DNA from: Aliikangiella sp. G2MR2-5 | Lineage (GTDB): Bacteria; Pseudomonadota; Gammaproteobacteria; Enterobacterales; Kangiellaceae | Assembly: GCF_015687155.1 (NCBI RefSeq) | Contig: NZ_JADPQF010000004.1 | Span: 310,001-374,000 of the forward strand | Reading direction: 5' to 3' | Length of the DNA stretch: 64,000 nucleotides | Shown: piece after piece, positions 9,746 to 19,945 of the stretch | How the letters are laid out: each line of letters starts with the position of its first letter | Position numbering within the stretch: position 1 is the first letter of the stretch | The notes under the pieces: model-generated | Database searches by the model: none | Told to the model about the DNA's origin: nothing | The model's input: only the letters and a program-made list of their open reading frames with translations | Translations under genes and position numbers: made by a program

Positions 9746-11680
9746 ATGGGTAAAATTATTGGTATCGACTTAGGCACAACTAACTCTTGTGTTGCAGTTC
9801 TGGACGGAAAAGACTCTCGAGTGATCGAAAATTCAGAAGGCGCGAGAACAACCCCTTCGATTGTTGCTTACACAGATGACAATGAAATTCTGGTTGGCCA
9901 GTCGGCAAAGCGTCAAGCGGTAACTAATCCGGATAATACCCTTTTTGCTATCAAGCGTTTAATTGGTCGTCAGTTCAAAGATGATGTCGTGCAAAAAGAT
10001 ATCAAGATGGTGCCATACAAAATTAGCGCTGCTGACAATGGTGATGCCTGGGTTGAAGTTAAGGGCGAAAAAATTGCACCTCCTCAGGTGAGTGCTGAAG
10101 TTCTTAAGAAAATGAAGAAAACAGCAGAAGATTTTCTTGGTGAAAAAGTGACTGAAGCGGTTATCACTGTTCCAGCTTATTTTAATGATTCTCAGCGTCA
10201 AGCGACCAAAGATGCAGGCCGTATTGCCGGACTTGAAGTGAAACGTATTATCAACGAGCCTACTGCGGCTGCGTTGGCCTACGGTATGGATAAAGGTAAA
10301 GGTGATAAAACCATTGCTGTCTATGACCTGGGAGGCGGTACTTTCGATATTTCCATCATCGAAATTGCAGAAGTTGAAGGCGAGCATACATTCGAGGTTT
10401 TAGCGACCAATGGTGATACTTTCCTTGGTGGTGAAGACTTTGACATGCGCGTAATCGAATACTTGGCTGATGAATTCAAGAAAGATTCAGGTATTGATTT
10501 ACACAATGACCCTCTGGCGCTACAGCGTTTGAAAGAAGCGGGTGAAAAAGCAAAAGTTGAGTTGTCTTCAAGTCAGCAAACAGACGTTAACCTGCCTTAT
10601 ATTACCGCGGATGCAACTGGTCCTAAGCATTTAAATGTTAAATTAACTCGAGCGAAACTGGAGTCATTAGTTGATGACTTGATTGAGCGCTCCTTAGAGC
10701 CTGTCAAGATGGCAATTAAAGATGCTGGTTTGAATGTATCTGATATCGATGATGTTATTTTAGTCGGTGGTCAAACTCGTATGCCTAAAGTACAGGAAGC
10801 CGTTACTAACTACTTTGGCAAAGAGCCACGTAAAGATGTAAACCCTGATGAAGCAGTAGCAATGGGTGCATCTATTCAGGGTGCGGTTTTGGCTGGTGAT
10901 GTTACAGACGTTCTTTTACTTGATGTTACACCGCTTTCACTGGGTATCGAAACCATGGGTGGTGTAATGACTAACCTGATCGACAAGAACACTACAATTC
11001 CAACCAAAGCGAACCAGGTGTTCTCTACTGCTGAAGATAACCAGACAGCGGTAACCGTTCATGTTCTTCAGGGTGAGCGTAAGATGGCGGCTCAAAATAA
11101 GTCGCTCGGAAAGTTCGACTTAACTGACATTCCGCCAGCGCCACGTGGTATGCCACAAATCGAAGTAATTTTTGATATTGATGCTAATGGTATTTTGAAT
11201 GTATCGGCTAAAGACAAAGCGACCGGTAAAGAGCAGTCAATTGTAATTAAAGCTTCTTCCGGTTTGTCGGATGAAGAGATCGAGCAAATGGTACGCGATG
11301 CTGAAGCACACGCTGAAGAAGACAAGAAGTTCCAGGAACTGATTGAAGCGCGCAACAAAGCTGACGGGCTGATTCACGCAACCAAGAAAACTATGGAAGA
11401 TGAAAAAGTTACTTTTGAAGATGGCGAGAAAGAAGCGATCGAAGCTGCTATCAAAGAACTTGAAGAAGTGCTTAAAGGTGACGACAAAGCTGCTATTGAA
11501 GCGAAAACTGAAGAATTGACCAAAGTTTCACAAAAAATGGCAGAGCGTCTGTATGCACAAGCGCAAGCTGAAGCACAGCAGGCTCAACCTGGAGCTGGAG
11601 CAGGTCAGGAAGAAAGTAACAAAGGCGACGACGACGTTGTTGATGCTGAGTTTGAAGAAGTCAAAGACGACAAGAAGTAA
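9746..11680 (+). CDS. dnaK: Molecular chaperone DnaK (Hsp70)
   Basis: Full-length 644-residue Hsp70. The N-terminal ATPase phosphate loop [14 protein letters not shown], the [11 protein letters not shown] motif near residue 194, the second phosphate loop [11 protein letters not shown], the interdomain linker [14 protein letters not shown] and the acidic C-terminal tail ending in EEVKDDKK are all visible. It works with the adjacent grpE and dnaJ products in protein folding. It is separated from dnaJ by a 133-base gap holding two hairpins. Confidence 0.99.
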
Positions 11681-11715
11681 TCTTTGACGAGCGTTGGTAG
11701 CGCTCAATAGTTTGC

Positions 11716-11779
11716 AAGCTTTTTAACGCAAGTTAAAAAGCTTCAGAAAAACTTTTGTAGCGCGGGGAGTTTCCCCGCG
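11716..11779 (+). promoter_or_regulatory. Two inverted repeats between dnaK and dnaJ
   Basis: AAGCTTTTTAAC at 11716-11727 and its exact complement at 11732-11743 form a 12-bp stem with a GCAA loop. A second GC-rich stem (CGCGGGGA / TCCCCGCG, 11761-11768 and 11772-11779, 3-base loop) follows. Neither is followed by a strong T-run. They look like attenuating or mRNA-stabilising hairpins that could lower dnaJ expression relative to dnaK, rather than full terminators. Confidence 0.55.
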
Positions 11780-12999: not shown

Positions 13000-13134
13000 C
13001 GTTGGAAGCAAAGGATATGTTTCAAGGTATCTTAAAGCGAAAATTCAACTTAACCCAAAAATATAATATTACTTCTTTAAAAATATTTCCGTATTATCCG
13101 TGTTTTATTGAAGATAATAAGCTGTAGGCTAAAT

Positions 13135-13593
13135 ATGGAAAAAACGATTTACAATCCACCAACTAGTGAAATAGTTGCCCGGCAAGTTAAAAGAGAACAG
13201 TTGGGAAAAATTCTCTCGTTAATTGGGTGCATTCTCCAGTCGGCATTAGTTTTCGGAATAATAATATTTATTGTCGATATGGTTATTGCGTTTCAAGAAA
13301 CAACCTTATATGGCTCAGGCGATCCTAAAGTGATGGCGGGGATGGTAAGTTCGGCTCTGATAAGCGTTGTTCTAGGTTGTGTTGTAGCTTTTCCAGGACT
13401 ATTGATGAACATAACAGCTTTGCTTATTTCATCATATAGCGCTACTTGGCTGTTTAGGTTTCTAATAACATCATCAATATTTTGGATTTTGGTTTTTCCA
13501 ATAGGTACACTGTTGGGCGTGGTTCTTTTAGTGGTTGCATTAAAGAAGCGCAAAATCTACATAAAAAGCCTAACCAATATTCGAACGTCATAG
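13135..13593 (+). CDS. Small MotA/TolQ/ExbB-like membrane protein
   Basis: A 152-residue protein with three or four hydrophobic segments. The stretch GDPKVMAGMVSSALISVV followed by GCVVAFPGLLM resembles the conserved core of the MotA/TolQ/ExbB proton-channel family, which is normally longer and has a partner protein. No partner gene (ExbD/TolR) is adjacent, so it may be a short orphan member acting on its own. I chose the ATG at 13135 rather than an upstream TTG, since the N terminus METKTIYNPP-like sequence (Met-Glu-Lys-Thr-Ile-Tyr) fits homologues I recall. It sits between the dnaJ terminator and an acetyltransferase gene. Confidence 0.6.
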   Translation: MEKTIYNPPTSEIVARQVKREQLGKILSLIGCILQSALVFGIIIFIVDMVIAFQETTLYGSGDPKVMAGMVSSALISVVLGCVVAFPGLLMNITALLISSYSATWLFRFLITSSIFWILVFPIGTLLGVVLLVVALKKRKIYIKSLTNIRTS

Positions 13594-13683
13594 ATAGGTT
13601 GTTGATAAAGACTGCATAACAAGTCTCGCAAGTCCTCCGCCAAGTCTGCTTAGTGTTTAGTGCTTCCATTAATTGGAGTTGAA

Positions 13684-14187
13684 ATGGAATTAATTCTACC
13701 TTCAGAAAAATATAAGAATAGCTACCTGGCATATATCGAAGAGCTCGGTGATGAAGAGCGCTATCCATTTCCTATGGATTTTGATTGTAGTGATTTTAGT
13801 AAAATGCTCTCAAAAATCAATGATTTCGCAGAGGGGGTAAACCTTCCGCCCGGGTATGTTCAAAGTTCTACACTCTGGCTTGTCGATTCTGGCGAATTGA
13901 TCGGTGTTACAAATATTCGTCATCGTCTTAATCAAGAAATTGAGTATTGCGGTGGACACATCGGGTTGGGAATTCGACCTTCTGCTCGCGGCAAGGGGTA
14001 CGGTAGCCAACTTATGAAGTTATCTATCGAAAAGCTTAGTGATCTGGGCGTTAGTACAATTTATATTCATTGTTACAAGGATAATATGGCTTCGGCTAAG
14101 GCTATTATTTCTAATGGTGGCTCATTAGAATCTGAGCTGTCATTGGGCAGTAAAATCGTTCAACGGTATTTAGTAAAGCCTATCTAA
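13684..14187 (+). CDS. GNAT family N-acetyltransferase
   Basis: A 167-residue acetyltransferase of the GNAT fold. The acetyl-CoA pyrophosphate-binding motif RPSARGKGYGSQLMKL lies near residue 99, preceded by a beta strand (GGHIGLGI) and followed by DNMASAKAIISNGG. The ATG at 13684 follows a GGAG ribosome site, whereas the in-frame upstream TTG does not. It is similar to the YjdJ/RimJ-like GNATs that are common in accessory gene blocks. The substrate is unknown. Confidence 0.85.
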   Translation: MELILPSEKYKNSYLAYIEELGDEERYPFPMDFDCSDFSKMLSKINDFAEGVNLPPGYVQSSTLWLVDSGELIGVTNIRHRLNQEIEYCGGHIGLGIRPSARGKGYGSQLMKLSIEKLSDLGVSTIYIHCYKDNMASAKAIISNGGSLESELSLGSKIVQRYLVKPI

Positions 14188-14272: not shown

Positions 14273-16165
14273 CTAGGGGTTGTATTCCAGCGGGATATGG
14301 ACTTCTATAGTAGTGCCTTTGCCGAGCTCTGAATTCAAAAAAATCTTACCGTGCAATGCTTGAACAATCTCCTGACAAATTGCCAGCCCCAATCCTGAGC
14401 CGCTGTGTGAACGGTTGTCTTCTGCATTAACCTGTTCAAAACCCTCAAATACCCGCTCCTGCATATTCTTGGGAATACCTATTCCCGTATCTTCGACAAT
14501 GAGTTGTAGCTGATTATTGTTGACCATATGAGAAATTGTAATTTTTCCTTGAACAGTAAATTTTACCGAGTTTCCAATAAGGTTAAAAAGCACCTGCTTG
14601 ATTCTCGCACGATCATGAAATAGCAATACTTCGCCTTCAGGTTGATAACATATTTCAACATCCGGGCTGTTGAGCAGTGGCTTGCAGATTCTTATTACCT
14701 CCAATACTAATTGCGAAAGTTCGAATTGATCAGGTTTAAAGGTCATAAAATGGGTTTTTAGTTTCGCCAGATCCAATATGTCATTCACTACTTCTGAAAG
14801 CTGGATTCCACTTTTTTCGATAAGTTTGAGGTGCTCGATACTTTCGCTATCGAGTTGCCCCACATTTTCCATTTGTAAGATTTGTGATAACCCGACAATA
14901 CCGTTGAGCGGTGTCCTTAATTCGTGCGAAGTATTGGTAAGGATTCGATCTTTAACTTTGTCCAGTCTTTTCAATTCTTCATTCAACCTTTTCTGGCGCA
15001 TTATCTGTAATCGTGTCGAGCGCCGATAAAACCAGAAAAGTATCAAAGCACTAGAAGCGAGCAGTGCGCCTCCCCAGATAACCTGAGTTTGTTTATGTGC
15101 CTCCAATTTTAGTTCTGCAATTTTCTGGAGCTGCTGGCTTTCTTTGAGTTGCTTTTCTGTTTCCTGAATGCCGCGCTCAATTCTTGTTACTTCAGCCTGA
15201 AGTAATACTTTCTCACCTTGAATACTATCAGTCAGTGTTTCCATCGCTTCTTTACGAATCAGGGCGGAGTGAAAATCTTCATTGGCTTTATCTATATCGA
15301 AAAGAAGCTCATTGAGCTGCAACAACTGAGTATTGTGTTGTATTTTCTGCGCTATCTTTAAAGCCTGGTTAGCTCTTTTGGTTGCACTCTCCAGATCCCC
15401 TTGCTGATAGTAGAATTGTCCTGCTTTTTTTAGCGAGATAACTTCAAGGCCTTCGAATTGATTTTGACGTGCTAACTCTTTTGCCCGGTCTAACAGTTCT
15501 ATTACATCAGCATAATTTTGCAGTTTGATTAGCCAGTCAACTTTTGTAAACAAATAATAGATATTTAAAAATGGATTTTCGTAATGAGTAAATAGTGTGT
15601 CAAGAAGTGCCATGTACTGGTTGGCTAAATCTGGCTCGTTGAGTTCAATGTAGCGAGAAACCATACCAATGTAGGCTACCGCTTTTTGATAGTCGGGACG
15701 TTCAATACCGTTAAGAACAGGGAGTTTCTTTAAATAGAGAAGTGATTCTTGCGGATTTTCCAGACGTAAAAAGACGCCGGAAATATTATTAATGGCGCTT
15801 TCAATGCTTTCGGTGTGATCGATTTCCTGAGAAATCTCTAGCGACTCCTGATAAAGCTTGAGCGCCTGTTGAAAGTCTCCAAGATACATAATAGTACTTG
15901 CGACATTTGAAATTGCTCTGGCAAGTTGTTTCTTGTCATTAGATTGTTCCGCCAGGCTTCTAGCCTGTATCGCAGCAGAAAATCCTTTTTGATATTGTCC
16001 TTGTTTAAATAACTCGTAGGCTTGCTCGTTAAGCTTTTCGGCGGATTGTGAAGAATAGGCTCTCTCAACAGCAACGATTTCTGCTGTTTGCGCAATTGAC
16101 GTTATCGCTAACAAGTCAAATATAAAACAAGTTGCAATAACGACGAATTTATTGAGCCTCTTCAT
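14273..16165 (-). CDS. TPR-containing sensor histidine kinase
   Basis: A 630-residue membrane sensor kinase. It has a signal peptide (residues 1-28, ending in a typical cleavage region), a periplasmic TPR-like helical domain (about residues 35-340), a short coiled coil, one membrane segment (about 362-382), a HisKA domain with NTSHELRTPLNGIVG (His near 413) and a HATPase domain with LFNLIGNSVKFT, VEDTGIGIP and GSGLGLAI. There is no receiver domain, and no response regulator gene is adjacent. The start lies 35 bases downstream of the borosin precursor stop on the same strand, so the two could be co-transcribed. The signal sensed is unknown. Confidence 0.9.
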   Translation of the reverse strand: MKRLNKFVVIATCFIFDLLAITSIAQTAEIVAVERAYSSQSAEKLNEQAYELFKQGQYQKGFSAAIQARSLAEQSNDKKQLARAISNVASTIMYLGDFQQALKLYQESLEISQEIDHTESIESAINNISGVFLRLENPQESLLYLKKLPVLNGIERPDYQKAVAYIGMVSRYIELNEPDLANQYMALLDTLFTHYENPFLNIYYLFTKVDWLIKLQNYADVIELLDRAKELARQNQFEGLEVISLKKAGQFYYQQGDLESATKRANQALKIAQKIQHNTQLLQLNELLFDIDKANEDFHSALIRKEAMETLTDSIQGEKVLLQAEVTRIERGIQETEKQLKESQQLQKIAELKLEAHKQTQVIWGGALLASSALILFWFYRRSTRLQIMRQKRLNEELKRLDKVKDRILTNTSHELRTPLNGIVGLSQILQMENVGQLDSESIEHLKLIEKSGIQLSEVVNDILDLAKLKTHFMTFKPDQFELSQLVLEVIRICKPLLNSPDVEICYQPEGEVLLFHDRARIKQVLFNLIGNSVKFTVQGKITISHMVNNNQLQLIVEDTGIGIPKNMQERVFEGFEQVNAEDNRSHSGSGLGLAICQEIVQALHGKIFLNSELGKGTTIEVHIPLEYNP

Positions 16166-16200: not shown

Positions 16201-16425
16201 CTACGGTTTTAGTTTGGCCGCAGTAGTTACTGTATTGTGACTTATCTTGTAGTTTCCACCGATTCGTTTTTGAATCTTGTCGTAGTCTTTGCTCAACATC
16301 AGCTTTCTGTCTTCATCAGATACCCCATACTTTTCCATGGTCTTGTTTGCATCACCGATGTAAGACTGTTTCAGATCGTCGTCCTTAGCTAGTTGGATCA
16401 TAAAATCTACCAGTTTATCCGCCAT
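16201..16425 (-). CDS. Split borosin RiPP precursor peptide (SonA-like)
   Basis: A 74-residue protein. Residues 3-55 are predicted mostly helical (Leu/Asp/Lys-rich, with the segments LVDFMIQLAKDDDLKQSY and DEDRKLMLSKDYDKIQKR). They resemble the borosin-binding domain of Shewanella SonA and its kin. The C-terminal tail (residues 56-74: Gly-Gly-Asn-Tyr-Lys-Ile-Ser-His-Asn-Thr-Val-Thr-Thr and on) is polar and short like a core peptide, and the Ile-Ser-His at 61-63 recalls the SonA tail. The partner alpha-N-methyltransferase gene lies just upstream on the same strand, separated by 147 bases. An AAAGGAAT-type ribosome site precedes the ATG. I infer backbone N-methylation in the tail; which residues are modified is not shown. 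Alternative: a small protein of unrelated function, less likely given the neighbour. Confidence 0.82.
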   Translation of the reverse strand: MADKLVDFMIQLAKDDDLKQSYIGDANKTMEKYGVSDEDRKLMLSKDYDKIQKRIGGNYKISHNTVTTAAKLKP

Positions 16426-16572
16426 TTCCAGATTCCTTTGTTTTGAAATAGTTATTATCAGCTAGTTAAAAACTAACTGTGCAGGGAAACTTTATCTCAG
16501 ATAGCCATTGAATATCAAATAGTTAATTGATTATCTTGGTTGAGAACTCTTTATTGGTTCGGGACTTGCAAA
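16426..16572 (-). promoter_or_regulatory. Gap between borosin methyltransferase and precursor, possible precursor promoter
   Basis: 147 bases with no open frame of note. On the minus strand a TTGATA element and, about 16 bases later, GATAAA form a possible promoter for the precursor alone. Extra transcription would help to make more substrate than enzyme. The stretch also contains TCAGCTAGTT (16458-16467), close to TCAGCTAATT beside the MarR start (17494-17503), and a small inverted repeat ATCAA/TTGAT near 16514-16531. A shared MarR operator is possible but only inferred. Confidence 0.35.
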
Positions 16573-17376
16573 TTAGACCAGCGTTAAATCAATATGCCAT
16601 TGTGAGCAAAAGTCCAGATCTACCCTGGGGGTTTGACATGGCGGAAGGTAAAGGGTTGTAATTGTTTTAACTTCCACAAAGTCCAGATTGGCAAGCATTA
16701 TGGGCTCGGCACGAACAGGCATAAGAGGTAGCGTTGGCGCTTCATAAAGAATTAATTCATGAGTTTCAGCGTATCTTTCAAGTAGCCTCGCCTTTAACAT
16801 GGCTAAACCATTATCAGCAGGGTGCATCTGAGTGAAGGTTAGGTCGCCGACGACACCTATTTGCCAGAGTATTAGCGGCGACGCCAGATTAACTGGCGGA
16901 TGATAAATCAAGTATTGGGTTGCTTCGTATGACTGGCAACCAAGATCTCCAGGGTCAATACCGAGATCGGCAAACAGGCAGTCCTCTGCCGAAATGGCTG
17001 GAAGCATCTCCGCGCTAAAGCCTTCCTTTCTGGCTATAGAAATGCATTTATGCGAGGGGTAAACAAAAACTCCGGGATGGCCGTAGAACACAGCGCAGAC
17101 TTTCAGTCCCTTTCTAAGATCTGCCATTATGGAATCGACCATTCGATCATAAGCTTCAACTCGGTTGTTCCCGTTTCGGCCGGACGAATCATCGTAATAG
17201 AGATCGCCCATATCTTTAATGTTGCAATTCAATTGTTCAATTGCGGCCTTGCCAAGAGGATCAGGTACCAGTAAGTGGACAATGTCGGCAGACACTATCC
17301 GGTTAATTGACTCCTGTGACAAGTGAGCTGGCGTGATAATTCCGCTGCCAACAACAACCAGACTTCCATTTTTCAT
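16573..17376 (-). CDS. Borosin alpha-N-methyltransferase (SonM/OphMA-like, split type)
   Basis: A 267-residue SAM-dependent enzyme of the tetrapyrrole-methylase fold. The N-terminal glycine motif (VVVGSGI, residues 7-13), YGHPGVFVYPSHKCISIAR (from residue 98) and SAEDCLFADLGIDPGDLGC (near 131) match fungal OphMA and bacterial SonM. Arg72, Tyr76 and Tyr98 fall at the positions that I recall as catalytic in OphMA. The enzyme ends without a fused core peptide, and the substrate is the adjacent 74-residue protein, so this is the split arrangement. It would methylate backbone amides of the precursor tail. The order here is enzyme first, precursor second. The gene is divergent from a MarR regulator across 143 bases. 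Confidence 0.92.
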   Translation of the reverse strand: MKNGSLVVVGSGIITPAHLSQESINRIVSADIVHLLVPDPLGKAAIEQLNCNIKDMGDLYYDDSSGRNGNNRVEAYDRMVDSIMADLRKGLKVCAVFYGHPGVFVYPSHKCISIARKEGFSAEMLPAISAEDCLFADLGIDPGDLGCQSYEATQYLIYHPPVNLASPLILWQIGVVGDLTFTQMHPADNGLAMLKARLLERYAETHELILYEAPTLPLMPVRAEPIMLANLDFVEVKTITTLYLPPCQTPRVDLDFCSQWHIDLTLV

Positions 17377-17483
17377 CGATATCTCTCTTTGTCCTGATTG
17401 GTGCCGATATTGCCACTAACCATCATAATTTTCGAGAAGATCTTTACTAACAAATATAAAATGAATGACATCCTTGCTTTTGT

Positions 17484-17501
17484 TATATTTAGCTCAGCTA
17501 A
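17484..17501 (+). promoter_or_regulatory. Candidate MarR operator overlapping promoter
   Basis: A perfect palindrome TTAGCT-C-AGCTAA (17489-17501) directly follows a TATATT -10-like element (17484-17489) and ends 18 bases before the MarR ATG. In the 143-base divergent gap it is placed to control the MarR gene itself and perhaps the methyltransferase. The operator call is an inference from position and symmetry. Confidence 0.45.
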
Positions 17502-17519
17502 TTAGTTTGAAGGGCAAAT

Positions 17520-17951
17520 ATGTCGAGCGATAAAGGAAATCTTGGATCTGCGCTAATTCGGTTAAACCGGTATTTGAATATGCTGGCTCAATCGGGGGGA
17601 CTGAGCGGTGCTCGTATGCAGGTGTTAGCTATTATCAAAGATAAAAATCCGGTAACTTTACGTCAGCTTTGTGATATTCAGCAGGTGAAAATGCCGACTA
17701 TGTCAAAGCTGGTGGACGAGCTTCAAAATGGTCAGTTAGTAATAAGAGCTCAGTCGAAAGATGATGCGCGAAAACGATGGATAGTGCCAACTCAGAAGGG
17801 GCTACAGGTACTTGCGCAGGCACAACAAGAAAACAAAAAACGCTGGCAGACAATTCTAAAAGAATTTAGCCAACAAGACCTCGAGTTGATGGAAAGTCAA
17901 ATTGATCAGTTATGTTCCGGACTTAGCAAGCATCTCGAAGGTGAAAGCTGA
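17520..17951 (+). CDS. MarR family transcriptional regulator
   Basis: A 143-residue winged-helix regulator. The HTH (PVTLRQLCDIQQVKMPTMSK, residues ~41-60) is followed by a wing with VIRAQSKDDARKRWIVPTQKG (MarR D-x-R signature) and a C-terminal dimerisation helix. MarR proteins usually repress divergent genes and respond to small ligands. It is divergent from the borosin methyltransferase and has a palindrome at its own promoter, so it is the best candidate regulator of the borosin locus. The ligand is unknown. Confidence 0.88.
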   Translation: MSSDKGNLGSALIRLNRYLNMLAQSGGLSGARMQVLAIIKDKNPVTLRQLCDIQQVKMPTMSKLVDELQNGQLVIRAQSKDDARKRWIVPTQKGLQVLAQAQQENKKRWQTILKEFSQQDLELMESQIDQLCSGLSKHLEGES

Positions 17952-17971
17952 GCGCCTATTTTGCAAAATGC

Positions 17972-18601
17972 CTATTCGTTACCAACAATTCGATAAGCAC
18001 AGCGTCTGGCACCTTCCAGAATATACTCAGTTCTCTCAATTTGAGTGCCTAACAGCGCTTGAAAAATTGCTAATTCTGAACGGCAGAATTGTTGACACTG
18101 GCTGGCCGCGGCACATATCGGACAATGATTTTCAATAAAGAAAAGGCCTTCGCCTGTGCGAATAACCTGTGCCATGTAGCCTTCATCATTGCGAATTTGT
18201 ACGAGCCTGTTTAGTTTCTCTTCTACTGACTTGTCTTCGGACATGCGCTTTTTATAAGCAGTAAGCATCTCTTGTTCACGAGACTTGATAAGCTCCTCGA
18301 ATGCCTCTCCTCCCAGCTGCTTTTGCATTTGTCCAAGCAGATTCACCAGCAGTGCTGAGTGTCCGTCAGGAAAGTGGCTATCAGCTTTCGGAGTTAGACT
18401 CCAGCGTTTCTTAGGTCGTCCTTTGCCTTCACTCACAAACTCATGTATGACCAGGCCCTGTTCTTCCATATGTTCCAGATGCTGTCTTGCTCCCATTGAG
18501 GTCATTGGTAGCAGGTCGGATAGCTCAACCGCACTGAGTGCTCCACGAGTTTTTAACAAGTGAAGAATTTGGGTCTGACTGGACTGGAAGCTATCACTCA
18601 T
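17972..18601 (-). CDS. SufR-like HTH regulator with cysteine-rich Fe-S binding motif
   Basis: A 209-residue DeoR/ArsR-type winged-helix protein (HTH around LSAVELSDLLPMTSMGARQH). Its C-terminal domain has the cysteine pattern HCPICAAASQCQQFC and, further on, GARRC. This resembles SufR, which uses a 4Fe-4S cluster to sense iron-sulfur status or oxidative stress. It lies downstream of the MFS gene on the same strand with a 100-base gap and is convergent with the MarR gene (21 bases between stops). It could regulate that transporter. No suf or isc genes are in the window. Confidence 0.8.
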   Translation of the reverse strand: MSDSFQSSQTQILHLLKTRGALSAVELSDLLPMTSMGARQHLEHMEEQGLVIHEFVSEGKGRPKKRWSLTPKADSHFPDGHSALLVNLLGQMQKQLGGEAFEELIKSREQEMLTAYKKRMSEDKSVEEKLNRLVQIRNDEGYMAQVIRTGEGLFFIENHCPICAAASQCQQFCRSELAIFQALLGTQIERTEYILEGARRCAYRIVGNE

Positions 18602-18700
18602 AAAGCAGCTCTCTCTCGATTATTCTGACTAAACAAAGCCCTGTCCTTTCTAATATAAAACATACTGTTGTTAAACATAAATGTGTTAATAAATGAGGCG

Positions 18701-19945
18701 TTAGTAACTATTTTCAGTTGCAACCAAAGCATTTTCGGGCTGCTCTTCTCTCTCTGGTTGTACAAAAAAGAATACCGATACCAGTATGAGTGCAGCCGCA
18801 AGCCACATGGTCAGAGTCGTACTGATAATAGCAACCAGACTGCCCGCAAGGGCGATAATAACATTGGTAAAGCAAAATACACTCATTTGCAGGCCCATTA
18901 CTTTTCCCTGCCCAAGATGGCCAAAATATTCCGATAGCATGGCAGGAAAAACCATATTGATAACGGCTATAACCGCTCCGGTTAATGCAAGAAAAATGTA
19001 TACACTATTTCCAGATGACAGCGTGCTCGTGACTATCAGCAAAGCAAAGATAAAATTACCACCCAGCAGTGCTCTTTTTTCTCCCAGTTTGGTGGGGAGT
19101 TTGTCGGCGATGGTGGTGCTGACTAAAATCATCAAGCTTGTAATTGCCACCGTCATCCAGGCGATTTGTTTACTGCCGAACTCCTGGATATCGGCAAGCC
19201 ATAGCGGGTAAAATTCATAAAACGCATTAATGCCAAGTGTATACAGAAAGTAATAGACAAAAAACTGGCGAATATCTTTTCTTAACAGCAAGGTTGCAGA
19301 GTGGTTTTGAATAATTTCCTGCCACAGGGTTGATTGAGATAGCTTTTGCACGGGCGTCTGTGGAAGTACCAAAATTACTAAAAGCGTAGAAAACAGAACC
19401 GCTGCACCAGCTGCATAGAAGGCCGCTTCGACGCCCAGAGGGGCCAGGTAACCTCCAGCTAGGGGTCCGATAAGCCAGCCACCATAAACTGCCGCATAGA
19501 GTAATGATAATGCCTTTTTACGGTCTATAACCGGATGAAGCTCAACTGCAATTGCGCGTGCAATTGACATATTTCCTTCGCAAAATCCGGTGAGAAACCG
19601 GGCAAATATGAAAGCGGTAAAGCTGCCTTTATATACAGCAAAGCCGGTCAATAGATAACCAAGCACACTCCCAGCCAAAGAATACAGAAGTACCTTTTTA
19701 CGACCAAAGCGATCTGAAAGTGAGCCAATAATGTTGCTGCCGAATAATAGTCCTAACGGGTAGGTCGCCAGGGTAATACCCAATAGTAGCTTGGGGTCGA
19801 GTGCCAAGAATTGAGTCAGGGGCTCGCCGCTGGAATTAAGAAAGTAAGGTGACAAAAGAGGGTAAGGTAAAGCGATCCCTGCCGTCCCCATAAGTGAAAG
19901 TAGCATAATAGTAGCCAAAACACCTTTAGCTCGAATTTTTTCCAT
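18701..19945 (-). CDS. MFS transporter
   Basis: A 414-residue major facilitator with about 12 membrane segments. The cytoplasmic loop 2-3 motif A is visible (GSLSDRFGRKKVL, near residue 75), and the central loop splits two halves of six helices. It resembles the TetA/multidrug efflux side of the family, so a drug or peptide exporter is possible. It is read together with the SufR-like regulator gene. An inverted repeat lies just upstream of its start. A role in exporting the borosin product is conceivable by proximity but not supported by the sequence. Confidence 0.88.
   Translation of the reverse strand: MEKIRAKGVLATIMLLSLMGTAGIALPYPLLSPYFLNSSGEPLTQFLALDPKLLLGITLATYPLGLLFGSNIIGSLSDRFGRKKVLLYSLAGSVLGYLLTGFAVYKGSFTAFIFARFLTGFCEGNMSIARAIAVELHPVIDRKKALSLLYAAVYGGWLIGPLAGGYLAPLGVEAAFYAAGAAVLFSTLLVILVLPQTPVQKLSQSTLWQEIIQNHSATLLLRKDIRQFFVYYFLYTLGINAFYEFYPLWLADIQEFGSKQIAWMTVAITSLMILVSTTIADKLPTKLGEKRALLGGNFIFALLIVTSTLSSGNSVYIFLALTGAVIAVINMVFPAMLSEYFGHLGQGKVMGLQMSVFCFTNVIIALAGSLVAIISTTLTMWLAAALILVSVFFFVQPEREEQPENALVATENSY

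Follow-up and report, generated by a model that had tools for sequence, protein, structure and literature searches.

A split borosin locus of Aliikangiella sp. G2MR2-5 with a linked tetratricopeptide repeat sensor kinase: a possible peptide signal and its receptor

What a bacterial borosin peptide is made for is the question raised by three consecutive genes in the stretch of DNA analysed here, a 64,000-nucleotide window of the Aliikangiella sp. G2MR2-5 genome (contig NZ_JADPQF010000004.1, positions 310,001 to 374,000; all coordinates below are those of the window, with strand in brackets). The genes encode a SonM-like peptide α-N-methyltransferase, a 74-residue SonA-like precursor and a sensor histidine kinase with a predicted tetratricopeptide repeat (TPR) ectodomain. 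We propose that they form an enzyme-precursor-receptor unit that produces a backbone-methylated peptide signal together with its dedicated TPR receptor, a reading to which we assign a probability of about 0.6. Homology, the predicted folds of the precursor and the ectodomain, conserved linkage and interchangeable receptor outputs support it. Judged by sequence and predicted fold, the enzyme and precursor are a new member of the type IV split borosins; the novelty of the locus rests on its third gene, the linked TPR receptor.

The methyltransferase gene (16573-17376 (-), 267 aa) is present where the first-pass annotation of this DNA had claimed a borosin enzyme, and contains both motifs named there, YGHPG and SAEDCLFADL. 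Its product matches the Pfam family TP_methylase (E 1.7e-16), and in a sequence search its closest solved structure was SonM, at an E-value that excludes a chance match (1.2e-54), followed by OphMA and dbOphM (E 1e-48 to 7e-50). At 267 residues, compared with 417 for the fused OphMA, it is a discrete enzyme. Arg72, Tyr76 and Tyr98, the residues noted earlier as standing in OphMA-like positions, are invariant in an alignment of 20 relatives, as is Y60; Y60, R72, Y76 and Y98 align onto SonM Y58, R67, Y71 and Y93, whose catalytic roles are described in the accessible part of PMC8429565.

The precursor gene (16201-16425 (-)) begins 147 bp downstream of the methyltransferase gene on the same strand, as the first-pass annotation had it. 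Comparison with SonA by sequence, which that annotation had proposed alongside the comparison with SonM, gave E 0.003, weaker evidence than that for the enzyme, and a match to Pfam LigA (E 2e-4) falls under the curated cut-off of that family. An AlphaFold2 model (mean predicted local distance difference test score, pLDDT, 74) places five helices (residues 4-14, 16-24, 26-33, 37-44 and 48-54) in a putative leader, the borosin-binding domain (residues 1-54; 16264-16425 (-)). After them comes a tail, residues 56-74 (GGNYKISHNTVTTAAKLKP; 16204-16260 (-)), predicted to comprise linker and core, with pLDDT below 50 at residues 58-73; this agrees with the helical domain and short tail described earlier. 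The borosin-binding domain of SonA spans residues 1-53 and likewise has five helices (accessible part of PMC8429565). When the model was compared with the PDB using Foldseek, the first 24 matches were all SonA chains, with modest E-values (0.03 and up); 18 of them superposed at 0.9-1.3 Å across 47-54 columns, and the top-ranked one at 4.7 Å across 65 columns. LigAB ranked next, and then, weakly, the OphMA family. The first-pass annotation had regarded the lack of any structural match to a borosin-binding domain as grounds for abandoning its proposal; because the precursor fold matches that domain of SonA, this refutation fails, and the split-borosin identity is borne out by the enzyme family, the catalytic residues and the SonA-like predicted fold.

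The tail sequence is unlike that of SonA, and could point to a different role for the small protein, in which it binds or regulates the enzyme and its own tail stays unmethylated: being short and polar, the tail contrasts with the hydrophobic fungal cores, and it is dissimilar to the SonA core around Leu63 and Ile65. With a SonA-like predicted fold, all four catalytic residues retained and a tail motif, Y-x-[IL]-[SA]-x-N-[ST], that recurs in 7 of the 12 loci of the window's receptor group (the window, L035, L036, L037, L039, L044 and L046; not L038 or L040-L043), we consider such a role very improbable. The locus shares with SonM/SonA of Shewanella oneidensis MR-1 a separate methyltransferase, an adjoining precursor of ~75 residues, a five-helix borosin-binding domain and the same catalytic residues (PMC8429565); in that system enzyme and precursor assemble as a SonM2-SonA2 heterotetramer. 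The enzyme-first gene order, regarded at first as a departure from the known systems, had to be given up as a novelty: all seven named Shewanella loci (S. oneidensis itself is not among them) run methyltransferase, precursor, TPR-GGDEF protein, and SonM and SonA carry the consecutive tags SO1478 and SO1479 (accessible part of PMC8429565). The third gene does differ, encoding a TPR histidine kinase in the window and a TPR-GGDEF protein in the seven Shewanella loci. The fused fungal borosins (OphMA, dbOphMA) have a methyltransferase of the same family, and the precursor model weakly matches OphMA, but there the enzyme and precursor share one chain. They are not known to be accompanied by a receptor gene.

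The third gene (14273-16165 (-), 630 aa) starts 35 bp downstream of the precursor gene on the same strand, and was overlooked in the first-pass annotation even though the enzyme and precursor were recognised. Pfam assigns TPR_12, HisKA (residues 405-470) and HATPase_c (residues 518-627) to its product, the latter two making up the kinase output (14285-14953 (-)), and the presence of the H, N, G1 and G2 box motifs as well identifies it as a two-component sensor kinase; no response regulator was noticed adjoining its gene. Hydrophobic segments at residues 3-28 and 361-380 flank the TPR region, with the kinase after the second, so that the predicted topology is an extracytoplasmic TPR domain (residues 29-356; 15098-16081 (-)), one membrane helix and a cytoplasmic kinase. 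Residues 1-390 were modelled by AlphaFold2 as a helical-repeat solenoid (mean pLDDT 90.5) that resembles LGN, NprR, Rap and other TPR proteins, a likeness to peptide receptors that is unspecific, as many other TPR proteins are similar too. Three asparagines of the ectodomain, N46, N87 and N127, are invariant in seven clade members. Receptors of the RRNPP family (Rap, NprR, PlcR) are cytosolic, and respond to peptides that are secreted and re-imported, in Gram-positive bacteria and their phages. The window ectodomain is instead predicted, from the two segments found by hydropathy, to lie outside the inner membrane, and its peptide would arise from a leader-core precursor acted on by a backbone methyltransferase. 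The architecture of an N-terminal hydrophobic segment, TPR ectodomain, one membrane helix and catalytic output is shared with TPR-GGDEF and TPR-kinase sensors in general, from which the window's sensor is set apart by its genomic company.

That company was traced in 61 genomes, drawn from the host's own genome, genus, family and order. The methyltransferase was found in 41 of them, at 75 places, and a TPR protein is encoded no more than 3 kb from 73 of these 75 genes. The ectodomains of the window and of locus L033, which represent the two main receptor types, were searched for at E-values up to 1e-12 and found at 13 and 27 places, respectively, of which 12 and 27 lie within 2.5 kb of a methyltransferase; these two ectodomain groups are thus almost confined to the neighbourhood of borosin methyltransferases (39 of 40 places), and 35 of the 39 follow the methyltransferase on its own strand at a distance below 1 kb. 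Together they account for 37 of the 75 methyltransferase places. For the remaining 38, our own profile model was applied to the flanking DNA: at 36 it places a different TPR protein on the methyltransferase strand no more than 3 kb away, one is truncated by a contig end (G002:C162), and one has none (G005:C1:589787). At three of the 73 TPR-positive places the TPR gene is ~2.6 kb away, past a second methyltransferase that it also serves. A count over a smaller set of stretches gave 60 of 66, four of the six misses being short stretches where the ectodomain search succeeds. The lone ectodomain place lacking a methyltransferase (L146, in genome G021) is close to the end of its contig, and a frame that by eye resembles an insertion sequence transposase sits just before the receptor gene; G021 has no methyltransferase match, and the receptor may be either orphaned or cut off by an assembly gap. 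The host genome has three methyltransferase genes, each followed on the same strand by a small open reading frame (ORF) and a TPR sensor, with kinase (window), GGDEF (L033) and kinase (L034) outputs; at L033 and L034 the small ORF is a presumed precursor. The features of the enzyme and precursor would all fit a plain split borosin with an unrelated kinase next door, an explanation that the 39 of 40 ectodomain places and 73 of 75 methyltransferase genes make hard to credit.

Similar linkage is seen among the named loci, the 80 best-scoring of at least 582 methyltransferase relatives (79 after L114, in which the model found no methyltransferase, was dropped), which were retrieved with an alignment whose members had largely been taken from loci where a TPR gene adjoins. 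Record titles served to recognise Gammaproteobacteria, with the 'Pseudomonadota' record L107 counted among them, and calls of TPR, kinase, GGDEF and leader outside Pfam come from our own profile models, built partly from the same loci. In 49 of the 55 gammaproteobacterial loci a TPR receptor follows within 2 kb downstream of the methyltransferase (40 with GGDEF, 7 with a kinase, 2 with TPR only). Pfam families in the nearest downstream ORF of at least 300 aa (n = 72) were GGDEF (35), TPR_12 (29), HATPase_c (9) and HisKA (7), and TPR_12 was found in 8 of the 73 nearest upstream ORFs; these tallies are lowered because ORF tiling can take antisense ORFs in GC-rich loci (L091 and L104 among the downstream ORFs). 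The trio occurs as enzyme-precursor-receptor, precursor-receptor-enzyme and precursor-enzyme-receptor, and the linked TPR proteins carry a kinase, a hybrid kinase, a GGDEF domain or no output. Such variety bears on the idea that the TPR protein helps, as an extracytoplasmic scaffold, to mature or export the peptide, its output domain only reporting on that process. Output-less TPR proteins in Kangiella-type loci, and Pleionea-type TPR proteins that end past the membrane helix, are what a scaffold would lead one to expect. We nonetheless find it improbable, as 47 of the 49 linked TPR proteins in named Gammaproteobacteria have a signalling output by our models, the downstream Pfam tally of GGDEF and HATPase_c agrees with this, and six non-gammaproteobacterial linked TPR proteins are cyclase or STAND proteins lacking hydrophobic segments.

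A second line of evidence comes from how precursor tails and receptors are paired. The methyltransferase-linked ectodomains fall into four groups (27, 24, 13 and 5 members) and two singletons (BLAST E < 1e-15). One receptor, L155:3040-5031 (-), is a natural chimera in which a GGDEF-type TPR ectodomain, 31% identical to the TPR-GGDEF protein of L033, is joined to a window-type histidine kinase, 37% identical to the window kinase and nearest to the window group. HisKA and HATPase_c were identified in it by Pfam; no TPR family reached E 0.001, and the TPR assignment is from the ectodomain alignment. Its seven nearest ectodomains, from six loci, are all attached to GGDEF domains. The L155 precursor has a tail, KIVCMIVPAEEE, that fits the pattern [VI]-C-x-x-x-P-A, as do the tails at all six of these loci: L033 (KIVCMLVPAKDD), L148 (KIICFLVPAKEE), L149 (KIVCMLVPAKDD), L151 (VICFIAPAEDE), L152 (IICGLAPAEDD) and L153 (KIVCILIPAEPD). 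The tail type at L155 therefore goes with the ectodomain and not with the output. At L036, moreover, a second precursor-kinase pair precedes the enzyme. The swap at L155 and the duplicated pair at L036 form the pattern expected of a ligand and its receptor. A general rule of one tail motif per ectodomain group fails, and the claim is limited to L155 and the loci closest to it. Tails vary within the group of 27, which includes Kangiella precursor-receptor-enzyme loci with markedly different ones such as VVVHNVKEHNL. In the L034 group a T-D-N tail is found in L034, L050 and L150 but is absent from L174, and L161 yielded no precursor.

These pairings also bear on a more conventional explanation, in which the peptide acts as an effector (an antibiotic, a metal binder or something else that is secreted) and the cluster is under the control of a TPR sensor that answers to some other cue. 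Sensor kinases adjoining natural-product genes do, as is generally known, often regulate them. Under such an arrangement, however, the tail type in the L155 chimera would not be expected to track the ectodomain, nor the precursor-receptor pair to be duplicated as in L036; a diguanylate cyclase would be a poor cluster-specific regulator, and the linkage holds in all four ectodomain groups of at least five members. We regard an effector as unlikely.

We instead favour a peptide signal read by the co-encoded receptor, which could work as follows. The methyltransferase would grip the helical leader of the 74-residue precursor and, as homology strongly suggests, methylate backbone amides in its C-terminal tail in the cytosol. 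A protease, perhaps encoded elsewhere, would then release the tail, which would leave the cytosol and bind the extracytoplasmic TPR solenoid of the sensor, and binding would alter the activity of the cytoplasmic histidine kinase whose motifs are present. Sister systems retain the enzyme, precursor and TPR ectodomain, with the output swapped for a GGDEF domain, a hybrid kinase or none.

Several observations weigh against this proposal. The path of the peptide to an extracytoplasmic sensor is unexplained, because no signal peptide was seen on the precursor, no linked protease was seen among the window neighbours scanned with Pfam, and the nearest transporter, of the MFS type, is common only to two syntenic loci of the same genus. 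Non-signalling TPR proteins match the ectodomain model equally well or better, and the conserved N46, N87 and N127 are lacking in the four GGDEF-type ectodomains compared. Part of the linkage lies within one bacterial family, where it could be plain descent, and next to one methyltransferase gene (G005:C1:589787, L153) no TPR gene lies on the same strand. Our leader model recognises a precursor between methyltransferase and receptor in 18 of the 49 gammaproteobacterial loci, the precursor being presumed elsewhere, and a search of the window's own genome by sequence found only the window precursor. Outside the Gammaproteobacteria, Pfam TPR families occur beside the methyltransferase in just 9 of 19 loci. 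Several Kangiella loci have TPR proteins of ~350-370 aa with no output domain by our models, and four Pleionea-type receptors (L042-L044 and L046; 368-393 aa; two of them checked with Pfam) stop after the membrane helix; signalling through the receptor itself is therefore not universal.

With respect to these shortened proteins, one to four output-less TPR proteins lie beside the borosin pair in the Kangiella-type loci L157, L166, L167, L158-L160, L163, L164 and L180, and the Pleionea-type receptors look as if the output domain had been lost. Two methyltransferase genes occur in or near one locus at L050 (back to back) and L045 (~1.6 kb apart), possibly with one or two precursors. Proteases are found at some related loci: a pepsin-like aspartyl protease (Pfam Asp) occurs in 7 of the 73 nearest upstream ORFs across the named loci, and at L033, in the host's own genome, such a protease (10374-11717 (-)) and a GNAT (9811-10374 (-)) stand directly upstream of the second methyltransferase, where they are candidates for peptide release and N-terminal acetylation. 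A PatG-like subtilase (Peptidase_S8, PatG_D and PatG_C; L065:2387-4537) beside a cyanobacterial borosin pair could cleave or cyclise the core. Lee et al. (2024) reportedly found a borosin precursor to be a substrate of shewasin A.

The other genes around the window locus could not be added to the unit. A 143-bp intergenic region (17377-17519), probably a promoter region, separates the methyltransferase from a divergent MarR-type regulator gene (Pfam MarR_2, E 3e-9), and the MFS transporter gene (Pfam; 18701-19945) is two genes upstream of the methyltransferase. A link of this regulator, the next helix-turn-helix regulator and the MFS gene (together 17520-19945) to the unit is unsupported, since among 20 loci only the syntenic, same-genus L037 and L038 share them. 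On the other side, membership of a GNAT gene (13660-14187 (+)) is likewise unsupported, as phmmer, run over the 120-259-aa ORFs of the loci from L033 onwards, matched only its own copy; different GNATs are found upstream of the methyltransferase in GGDEF-type loci (by Pfam for L033 and L097). A small membrane protein with a weak Pfam match to MotA_ExbB (13108-13593 (+)) is encoded, like the GNAT, between dnaJ and the kinase gene; both genes are absent from L037 and L038.

Linked TPR proteins extend beyond the Gammaproteobacteria, where per-locus Pfam searches covered 19 loci (leaving out L072, L088, L100, L103 and L124). A cyclase-AAA-TPR protein is encoded beside the methyltransferase in two alphaproteobacterial records and, on the other strand, in a Thermoleophilia record; cyclase-TPR proteins are found in two Thermoplasmata archaea, an AAA-TPR protein in Methanomassiliicoccus, a BTAD-NB-ARC-TPR protein in Ardenticatenaceae, a TPR protein in Microcoleus and a GGDEF-TPR protein in Undibacterium. 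No hydrophobic segment was found in the six of these cyclase or STAND proteins examined, from archaea, alphaproteobacteria and Chloroflexi-type records. Tentatively, and at slightly less than even odds in our estimation, split borosins as a class may be ribosomal peptide signals read by TPR receptors, in Proteobacteria through kinases and GGDEF proteins and probably in archaea and other phyla through cyclase-TPR and STAND-TPR proteins, with three such channels running side by side in the window's host, distinct from one another in tail type and in receptor.

According to the 2021 SonM/SonA paper (PMC8429565), no type IV split borosin pathway had by then been tied to a final natural product; the accessible text of that paper, in which the terms histidine kinase, GGDEF, tetratricopeptide and signal have 0 occurrences, does not mention a linked TPR receptor under them. 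Our literature searches found no paper joining borosins with TPR sensors, with earlier mention possible in the bacterial borosin surveys of Imani (2022) and Lee (2024). A later paper is reported to deal with a bacterial borosin product. Backbone N-methylation is stated to favour membrane permeability (abstract of PMC8429565). A receptor gene that travels with the enzyme and precursor makes the function of the peptide directly testable, through ectodomain binding and a kinase or cyclic di-GMP readout. If our proposal is correct, bacterial borosin peptides would gain a role as signals, backbone N-methylation would join bacterial peptide signalling, and these loci would offer ready-made peptide-sensor pairs whose outputs have already been swapped in nature.
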